In this document: in pieces, positions 35,626 through 38,102 of the stretch
Layout of the letters: the number at the start of each line of letters is the position of its first letter
How positions within the stretch are numbered: the first letter of the stretch is position 1
DNA from: Treponema sp.
GTDB taxonomy: Bacteria > Spirochaetota > Spirochaetia > Treponematales > Treponemataceae
Reading direction: 5' to 3'
Length of the DNA stretch: 64,000 bases
Assembly: GCA_018385315.1 (NCBI GenBank)
Contig: JAHAZJ010000149.1
Span: forward strand, 1-64,000
Position numbers and translations under genes: made by a program
The notes under the pieces: model-generated
Database searches by the model: none
The model's input: the letters and a program-made list of their open reading frames with translations, nothing else
Told to the model about the DNA's origin: nothing

Positions 35626-36981
35626 TCATTTTGAAAAAACAGTTTTTATAATATCTTTTATTGTGGAAACAAAAATACCCTCTTTTTCAGGACATACCAC
35701 ATTACAAAAACCTAAACTATTTGCCGCTTTTATTCTCTGTTTTGCTTTGTTTACAGGGCGAATTTCACCTGCAAGACTTAATTCACCAAAAACAGCAAAA
35801 TCGTTGTTTAATGCAAGATCAGTTCTTGCAGAATAAAGGGCGACGGCAAGGGCAGCATCAATAGAACTTTCTTCTAATCTGACTCCTCCGGCAACATTTA
35901 TATAAATATCCTGATCTGAAAAAACTATTCCACATCGTTTTTCTAAAACTGCTGCAATTCTTGCAACACGTCCAGAATCAATTTTCTCACTATAAACTCT
36001 GGAAATGGAAGCTTTTGCCGGAACAGTCAGGGCTTGAATTTCAACTAAAAATACTCTGGAACCTTCAAAAACCGGGGTGCAACATACTCCAGCAGGCTGG
36101 GAAGTTGTTCTTCTTGTAAGAAATAAAGATGCTGGATCAGCTACACATTCAAGACCTTTTTCACTCATAGAAAAAATTCCTAATTCATCAACTGAACCGA
36201 ATCTATTTTTCTGTGCATGTAAAAATCGTATATCATCATTATTTTTTTCAAAAGAAATAACAGTATCCACCATATGTTCCAGAGATTTAGGTCCTGCAAT
36301 GGCACCTTCTTTAGTAACATGGGCTGTCATTATTAAAACACTGTCCCGTTCTTTTACCCAGCTTATAAACTCATTTGCACAATATTTAAGCTGATTTATT
36401 GTTCCAGGAATTACACCCGCTTCTGCAGAATAAATCGTCTGAATCGAATCTATAATCACCAGTGTTGGTTTTAGGGAATCCAGTGCATCAAGACTATCTT
36501 CCAGTCTGCTGGTACTTAATAACTGAATACCATTGCAATTTATTCCCAATCTGTTTGCTCTTTCTTTTATTTGCCCCAAAGATTCTTCGCCACTAATATA
36601 TAAGACAGTAGAATCATTATTTAATTTTGAAATTGTTTTGGCAGCTGTTTGTAATAGCAAGGTGGATTTACCAATACCAGGTTCACCACCTAAAAGAATT
36701 GCAGAGCGAATTGCAGCTCCTCCACCTAAAACACGGTCAAACTCATCTATACCAGTAAATAAACGTGAGTTATTTTGAGCTTCAACAGTCTCAAGATTAA
36801 CAGGTTTTTGTTTTTCAACTAAAACATTTCCTCTTCCAGCCGGTGATACAGCATTTTTATCAAGTATAATTTCTTCCAGACTGTTCCATTCTCCACATTC
36901 AGGACATCTTCCAAGCCAACGAGGTTGTGAATAACCACAGTTACTGCATTTATAACTAATGCTTCCATTTTTTTTAGCCAT
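35626..36981 (-). CDS. radA: DNA repair protein RadA
   Basis: N-terminal zinc finger YKCSNCGYSQPRWLGRCPECGEWNS; Walker A GGEPGIGKST; KNRFGSVDELGIF. Confidence 0.97.
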   Translation of the reverse strand: MAKKNGSISYKCSNCGYSQPRWLGRCPECGEWNSLEEIILDKNAVSPAGRGNVLVEKQKPVNLETVEAQNNSRLFTGIDEFDRVLGGGAAIRSAILLGGEPGIGKSTLLLQTAAKTISKLNNDSTVLYISGEESLGQIKERANRLGINCNGIQLLSTSRLEDSLDALDSLKPTLVIIDSIQTIYSAEAGVIPGTINQLKYCANEFISWVKERDSVLIMTAHVTKEGAIAGPKSLEHMVDTVISFEKNNDDIRFLHAQKNRFGSVDELGIFSMSEKGLECVADPASLFLTRRTTSQPAGVCCTPVFEGSRVFLVEIQALTVPAKASISRVYSEKIDSGRVARIAAVLEKRCGIVFSDQDIYINVAGGVRLEESSIDAALAVALYSARTDLALNNDFAVFGELSLAGEIRPVNKAKQRIKAANSLGFCNVVCPEKEGIFVSTIKDIIKTVFSK

Positions 36982-37065: not shown

Positions 37066-37094
37066 TTGACAACTAAATCGTAGTGAGATATATT
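37066..37094 (+). promoter_or_regulatory. Near-consensus sigma-70 promoter for the putative sRNA
   Basis: TTGACA (37066-37071) - 17 nt - TATATT (37089-37094). Confidence 0.7.
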
Positions 37095-37097
37095 AAA

Positions 37098-37198
37098 GAC
37101 AGCTTGTAAATAAGCTGATAAACTCTCTCCGATGTCCAGCAATGCTGGACGGCAAGGTTCTCTTTTAGTGTTACTGTCTGAGAACCTTGTTTTTTTTT
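37098..37198 (+). ncRNA. Putative standalone ~100-nt small RNA
   Basis: Promoter above, hairpins CAGCTT-GTAAAT-AAGCTG and GTCCAGC-AAT-GCTGGAC, intrinsic terminator CAAGGTTCTC...GAGAACCTTG+T9; no ORF; intergenic. Confidence 0.6.
37153..37198 (+). terminator. Intrinsic terminator of the putative sRNA
   Basis: 10-bp stem CAAGGTTCTC/GAGAACCTTG followed by TTTTTTTTT. Confidence 0.9.
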
Positions 37199-37232: not shown

Positions 37233-38102
37233 TTATTTATTTTCCTGTGTTATAACCGAATTTGGTGCAACAGAAGATGTTACCCATGTGTTACCACCAA
37301 TTACAGAACCTTCACCAATAACAGTATCGCCACCAAGAATTGTTGCATTTGCATAAATTGTTACATTATCTTGAATTGTTGGATGTCGTTTTTTATCTTG
37401 CAAAACTTTTTTTACACTTAATGCACCAAGTGTCACTCCCTGGTAAATTTTTACATTGTTACCAATAACACAGGTTTCTCCAATAACGACACCTGTTCCA
37501 TGGTCAATAAAGAAAGATTCACCAATAGAAGCACCAGGATGAATATCAATTCCTGTTTTACCATGAATATGTTCGCTCATAATGCGAGGGATAATTGGAA
37601 TACCATTTTTATATAGAAAGTGGGAAATTCTGTTTACAAGTATAGCTTCTAATCCAGGATAAGATAAAATAACTTCTTCATTGCTTCTTGCTGCAGGATC
37701 TCCATTCAAAGCAGCCTGGGTATCTAATTGAATTTTTCTGCGAATTTCAGGAATTTCTTCAAGTAATGCAATAGAGGCTTTTTCAGCAAGTTTAAAACAG
37801 TGAGATTCAACAATTAAAGAAGGGTCTCTATTTGTTCGGGATAAAGTATAAATCAAGGCTTTTTGAATTTCTTTGGTTAATTTTGCAATAATATTATTAA
37901 CTTTTTCACCGGTAATATATCTTATGTTTGAAGGATTAATTTCTTCTGCAGTTCTAAAACCTGGAAAAACAAGACTTTGTAAATCAGATAGAACTGAAAC
38001 TACATTTTGTCTGTTAGGAAAGTTTTCTGCATCATTGCGATTAACTAGACCATAATCATCATATGATTTTAAAATACTTTCAATAATTTTATCTGTTTGC
38101 AT
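37233..38102 (-). CDS. cysE: Serine O-acetyltransferase
   Basis: HIHGKTGIDIHPGASIGESFFIDHGTGVVIGETCVIGNNVKIYQGVTLGA hexapeptide repeats. Confidence 0.93.
   Translation of the reverse strand: MQTDKIIESILKSYDDYGLVNRNDAENFPNRQNVVSVLSDLQSLVFPGFRTAEEINPSNIRYITGEKVNNIIAKLTKEIQKALIYTLSRTNRDPSLIVESHCFKLAEKASIALLEEIPEIRRKIQLDTQAALNGDPAARSNEEVILSYPGLEAILVNRISHFLYKNGIPIIPRIMSEHIHGKTGIDIHPGASIGESFFIDHGTGVVIGETCVIGNNVKIYQGVTLGALSVKKVLQDKKRHPTIQDNVTIYANATILGGDTVIGEGSVIGGNTWVTSSVAPNSVITQENK

Follow-up and report, generated by a model that had tools for sequence, protein, structure and literature searches.

A genus-wide small RNA gene of Treponema and its putative antisense counterparts in phage messages

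A stretch of 64,000 nucleotides from a Treponema genome (genome G000, contig C194; hereafter the window) carries a short locus that is strongly supported, on comparative evidence, as a genuine standalone gene for a small RNA (sRNA) of a new family. Phages and prophages of the same genus carry sequences antisense to the 5′ part of this RNA in their own messages, and this mirror-image match points to binding, titration or exploitation of the sRNA by phages. The RNA family is new, and so is the setting of the antisense elements in phages. Only six sRNAs are annotated in the phylum Spirochaetes according to one review (PMC9029176). Through a conserved RNA mirrored by phage messages, riboregulation without Hfq would become tractable, and a contest between phage and host at the level of RNA in the rumen and gut would be directly testable. 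An earlier interpretation made from the letters of the window (the sequence-only reading) had proposed a trans-acting sRNA at this place. Its standalone sRNA gene is upheld here, whereas targeting of Shine-Dalgarno sequences and an internal pairing between AGACAG and CTGTCT are not; the antisense copies in phages and prophages were absent from it.

The sRNA locus and its family

The sequence-only reading had described a promoter, a first hairpin, an open C-rich segment, a second hairpin and a terminator followed by nine Ts at 37066–37198, all of which are present (Table 1). It had also placed them on the plus strand between radA and cysE, both on the minus strand, as the leader of neither gene, and the strands and Pfam assignments of the neighbors confirm this: the sRNA has its own promoter and intrinsic terminator and is not part of any neighbor gene's leader. 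The predicted RNA has a fold energy of −38.2 kcal/mol, compared with −19.4 ± 2.9 for shuffled sequences (z = −6.5), and none of 200 shuffles equals it.

Table 1. Features of the sRNA locus, with positions in the window
Feature	Position	Strand	Observation
Promoter, sigma-70-type, TTGACA-N17-TATATT	37066..37094	+	TTGACA at 37066–37071, TATATT at 37089–37094, 17 nt between; 11/12 matches; spacing to hairpin 1 kept in 132/143 copies
Predicted sRNA transcript, ~97 nt	37101..37198	+	Start deduced from promoter and onset of conservation
Hairpin 1, AGCUU-GUAAAU-AAGCU (AGCTTGTAAATAAGCT; RNA AGCUUGUAAAUAAGCU)	37101..37116	+	5′ stem-loop, nearly invariant
Unpaired C-rich segment GATAAACTCTCTCCGAT (RNA GAUAAACUCUCUCCGAU), proposed seed	37117..37133	+	Open in the fold; mostly 0 mismatches genus-wide
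Hairpin 2, GUCCAGC-AAU-GCUGGAC (DNA GTCCAGC-AAT-GCTGGAC)	37134..37150	+	Changes on both sides in 6/7 pairs
Intrinsic terminator with inner mini-hairpin AGU-GUU-ACU and T9 tail	37153..37198	+	Arms CAAGGTTCTC...GAGAACCTTG at 37153–37189, T9 at 37190–37198; 13/13 pairs of helices 3 and 4 double-changed
radA, divergent neighbor	35626..36981	− (start 36981)	Pfam; radA-like (cluster 1) at 59 flanks
cysE, serine acetyltransferase, convergent neighbor	37233..38102	− (stop 37233)	Pfam; cysE-like (cluster 0) at 79 flanks

Of 143 related sRNA copies, 142 are preceded by a promoter-like site with a score of 8/12 or higher. Because the −10 hexamer ends 6–7 nt before hairpin 1 in 132 of the 143, the transcript is predicted to start at the first base of hairpin 1, which in the window was set at 37101 (the −10 end plus 7). 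AGACAG (37097–37102), which the sequence-only reading had paired with CTGTCT, lies almost wholly 5′ of this predicted start, and neither motif is conserved: other copies have AAGTCAG, TTATAG, GTTAG and the like at the position of AGACAG, and CTGTCT is likewise not kept.

By BLAST, the sRNA was found in 21 of 40 relatives, every one of the same genus. A 20-nt core, searched with up to three mismatches, is present in 174 of 196 genomes of the genus and in 80 of the 84 good ones, with no mismatch in most of the matches listed, while a reversed-pattern control gave sporadic matches only. The genus comprises gut and rumen Treponema; carriers include the host-associated T. bryantii, T. ruminis, T. 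berlinense and T. porcinum, and two or more copies per genome are often found. The order radA(−)/sRNA(+)/cysE(−) is kept in at least 44 loci.

The sequence-only reading had called for covariance in other treponemes, and within the genus it was found. An alignment of 80 diverse copies shows covariation in hairpin 2, in the stem of the terminator and in its inner mini-hairpin, and 19 of 25 pairs have changed on both sides; 93.2% of alignment cells are paired, compared with 76.7% after shuffling and 34–48% in slid versions, and the covariation score is 0.495 as opposed to 0.196 for the shuffled alignment. The covariance model matches the window copy, which was among the 80 sequences used to build it, at 37101–37197 with an E-value of 2.2e-19. 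The stem of hairpin 1 is kept in all 80 sequences, the sole change being A-U to G-U in the first pair. Overall, the first ~33 nt hardly vary, and no unpaired part of the RNA is better conserved than the C-rich segment, as expected of a seed. Because most copies were retrieved with 20 of the invariant columns, invariance is independently supported by the core search in 196 genomes and by the hairpin-1 arm that lies outside the search pattern.

In a sample of 199 genomes of the phylum, the covariance model detected the RNA in this genus only and in no other genus of the same family, under strict filters through which weak matches can be lost. The Rfam check that the sequence-only reading had proposed returned no family for the sRNA: in Rfam 15 there are weak, chance-level matches and none at gathering score, tRNAs alone passing the cut-off. 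Complete genomes lacking the sRNA exist, G204 and G001 having none, the latter despite a prophage site of the kind described below.

Some copies depart from the common form. Three divergent ones detected by the covariance model only (L329–L331, in G101, G021 and G161) have the seed AAAACTCTCTCCTTT and a shorter hairpin 1, with the core ACTCTCTCC retained. In sRNA-like copies of G074 and G132 (L192/L193) and of G065 and G124 (L190/L191), the seed ends in CTCTCTCCTTT or CTCTCTCCAAC instead of CTCTCTCCGAT, and these four are natural seed variants; a change in the sRNA of G065 is CTCTCTCCAACG.

Candidate partners in the host and in phages

Hfq was found in none of the 21 relatives' genomes, while positive controls (E. 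coli and others) worked; the host-encoded Hfq that goes with the class of Hfq-dependent sRNAs was thus not found in these genomes. The sequence-only reading had the C-rich segment targeting Shine-Dalgarno sequences, and this is not supported: in 1.6 Mb of a related genome (G058), 8-mers complementary to the seed are not enriched over controls and duplex energies at gene starts do not go beyond controls. No host mRNA target above chance emerged from the same 1.6 Mb. Perfect seed complements are essentially absent from host genes but recurrent in phages of the genus. Outside sRNA genes, VGATAAACTCTCTCC occurs once and VAAACTCTCTCCGA 27 times in 196 host genomes; well over half of these 27 sites are in mobile elements, ~50–70 nt downstream of phage-type primase or major capsid genes, and the remainder is about the ~12 expected from base counts by our own estimate.

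When viral contigs were scanned for the 20-nt core, one contig (L154) matched, three times. It belongs to a tailed phage from the rumen with terminase and portal genes. The three copies are exact and antisense, each lies directly after a stop codon between small phage genes, and at one site complementarity to the sRNA extends over 34 nt. In the sense of the message, genes are followed by a UCGGAGAGAGUUUAUC-hairpin and, in two cases, by the next ribosome-binding site and start codon. Among the viral 14- and 15-mer matches, several to most seem to be due to chance. In a comparison of the phage DNA with 192 host genomes, in which two candidates were scored per genome, the sRNA element was the sole match among those listed, and L154 is therefore only a putative phage of this Treponema genus.

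In prophages, the elements are located just downstream of primase or major-capsid genes; a prophage of G058 with integrase, terminase, portal, capsid and primase genes has two sites. The orientation is always antisense to the sRNA and sense for the phage message, and the predicted messages are polycistronic. The sites are part of hairpins, of which some have T runs; the complement to the sRNA is constant in them, and the surrounding stems differ (AAGCUUCC/GGAAGCUU, AAGCAUCC/GGAUGCUU and CAGCUUCC/GGAGGCUG). In L188, L311, L314 and L316, a terminator-like hairpin precedes a T run and the complement overlaps the 3′ arm of that hairpin. In L309, L154, L169 and L170, the site is directly ahead of a ribosome-binding site; L182 and L315 have neither feature. 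The genes downstream of the elements are not conserved, and the elements have no match in Rfam. In L441, L439 and L185, GGAGAGAG is paired within the phage element itself, and one site of the genus (L434) has lost GAGAGAG.

The element L441, in the 3′ region of a primase gene of G050, has both ACUCUCUCCGAU and AUUGGAGAGAGU, as though the sRNA seed were copied in it alongside the complement of that seed, and folds on itself at −31.7 kcal/mol.

The link between the sRNA and the phage elements was examined in several ways. With up to two mismatches allowed, the motif is present at 22 of 38 loci downstream of primase genes in the genus (a few loci being the same place fetched twice), whereas none of the 17 informative homologues of other genera, which are ~50% identical, has it; a shuffled motif gave a mean of 0.02. 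At 29 of 33 sites, complementarity continues into hairpin 1 (20 nt past the seed against each site's own shuffles, p ≤ 0.05), and therefore the element appears to be antisense to the whole 5′ module, although the 33 sites are not independent because prophage elements share ancestry; L164 failed this test. The predicted duplexes between sRNA and element have energies of −36 to −57 kcal/mol. In the 1.6 Mb of G058, no predicted sense intergenic partner of the sRNA ranks above the two sites of the prophage, the locus of the sRNA gene itself aside, and all other partners are at the level of shuffled seeds.

Explanations of the antisense match and known counterparts

The explanation we prefer, with about even confidence, is that the RNA is a base-pairing sRNA independent of Hfq and that phage "anti-sRNA" elements bind its invariant 5′ module, acting as a sponge or exploiting the binding. 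In outline, the locus is a standalone gene, and its ~97-nt product would be a regulatory RNA confined to one Treponema genus. The functional part of this RNA would be the 5′ module, consisting of hairpin 1 and the 17-nt single-stranded CUCUCUCC segment, which would base-pair without Hfq, whereas hairpin 2 and the terminator would be required only to fold. Intergenic elements of phages and prophages, read in the sense of the message, are near-complete antisense copies of this module. Most likely, the phage transcripts either bind and occupy the host sRNA or make use of this binding to act on terminator or translation signals of their own. The gene anatomy, the genus-wide conservation, the covariation, the lack of a recognizable Hfq and the antisense elements in phages of the genus are supported at the level of sequence; that the RNA is transcribed, that it pairs in the cell, which way the effect runs and what the host targets are is inferred. 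A benefit to the phage is favored because a harmful non-coding site would be easily lost, yet the sites are retained, in multiple copies. The failure to find a host target above chance in G058, the shared ancestry of the prophage elements, the internal pairing of GGAGAGAG in L441, L439 and L185 and the two sRNA-less genomes, one of them with a prophage site, weigh against this explanation. A more far-reaching version, which we offer only tentatively as a possibility, makes phage transcripts the main partners of a genus-fixed chromosomal sRNA, so that the system would be an RNA front of phage-host conflict without Hfq, in which several phage lineages keep antisense copies to neutralize or exploit the RNA.

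The same extended complements, found almost only in phage and prophage messages, together with the near-universal presence of the gene in the genus, would also fit an immunity RNA with which the host silences phage transcripts by pairing with their intergenic elements, much like P4 CI or P1 C4 RNA inside a phage but encoded by the host chromosome. This main rival is unlikely: phages keep the easily lost GGAGAGAG across a range of primase identities and in up to three copies, which fits a benefit to the phage better; one site of the genus, L434, has lost GAGAGAG. Alternatively, binding of the sRNA may open the phage hairpin or terminator in which the site lies, so that read-through into downstream phage genes, or their translation, would depend on the presence of the sRNA. 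The sites overlapping terminator-like hairpins and those directly before ribosome-binding sites speak for such a switch, but L182 and L315, with neither feature, and the unconserved downstream genes speak against it, and it is improbable. It is less probable still that a protein recognizes the invariant 5′ stem-loop and tail and that phage antisense RNA masks both; near-invariance of ~33 nt including stem and loop is beyond the need of a pairing seed, and host mRNA targets were not found in the 1.6 Mb of G058, but there is no candidate protein and the phage elements match by base complementarity.

Little credence can be given to shared descent without function, in which both the elements and the sRNA gene go back to a single stretch of mobile DNA and are now unrelated in role. 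The prophage elements are alike and may have been inherited as a block, but the orientation is always antisense, the carriers differ (primase, capsid and small genes, and unrelated phages), and the surrounding stems change while the complement stays. It is very improbable that the locus is not an sRNA gene at all and represents a small ORF, part of a leader or a promoter and terminator brought together by chance. An ATG at 37132–37134 could open a frame of 22 codons, but it has no ribosome-binding site before it and becomes ATT or ACG in other copies, stem lengths shift the frame, the stems covary and the next gene is convergent; with neither frame nor start conserved, the small ORF was rejected. 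A phage attachment site was also considered and is unlikely because L154 has three copies and one of the two sites in the G058 prophage is central.

Known systems resemble parts of the preferred explanation. P4 CI RNA and P1/P7 C4 RNA are immunity RNAs made by the phage or satellite itself. Like them, the Treponema sRNA is small and has its complements in phage sequence close to a primase operon; unlike them, it comes from a conserved chromosomal locus, and its sites are downstream of primase or capsid genes. RsaE/RoxS and FsrA are sRNAs of Gram-positive bacteria with C-rich seeds. They share with the Treponema sRNA an unpaired C-rich segment and a promoter and terminator of their own, whereas sequence and host phylum differ, and for the Treponema sRNA neither an Rfam match nor, in the 1.6 Mb of G058, Shine-Dalgarno enrichment was found. 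Cluster K mycobacteriophages reportedly have start-associated and extended start-associated sequences, repeated before phage start codons and containing inverted repeats. The Treponema elements are likewise repeated phage elements with inverted repeats, of unrelated sequence, and we know of no host sRNA complementary to the cluster K sequences. The closest parallel on the phage side is with the anti-sRNAs encoded by phages of EHEC, AgvB against GcvB and AsxR against FnrS (PMC4104026): there, too, the seed of an sRNA from the core genome has its complement in phage-derived RNA, which has been proposed to titrate the sRNA (PMC4104026), and complementarity of phage sequence to a host sRNA's putative seed is what is found here. 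However, the EHEC anti-sRNAs are separate sRNAs that use Hfq (PMC4104026), whereas the Treponema elements lie between phage genes and cover stem-loop and seed, and Hfq was not found. Judged from sequence and by analogy, the Treponema sRNA may thus resemble trans-acting sRNAs with C-rich seeds in its action, as the phage elements may resemble AgvB, but without Hfq.

Other structures and genes in the prophage regions

Just after the prophage capsid gene at L461, L464–L465, L467–L471, L473 and L489–L490 is another conserved structure, CCAAAGAGCAATATATATTGCCCTTTGGAAAGCGGGGGCGAAAA...GGCTTGGCCTTGTATTTGACTGAACGGAGGTTATAC, which many prophages without an anti-sRNA site have at that place; it gave no convincing Rfam family in the four loci scanned. 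A DUF3800-XI RNA of Rfam scores above its gathering score (57.8 bits) at L461:3976–4023, in a prophage region. The G058 prophage has, between tail and capsid genes (L372:8921–14649), a cargo with two C5-cytosine methylase-like genes, one of them confirmed by Pfam, and further genes, perhaps a restriction or defense island.
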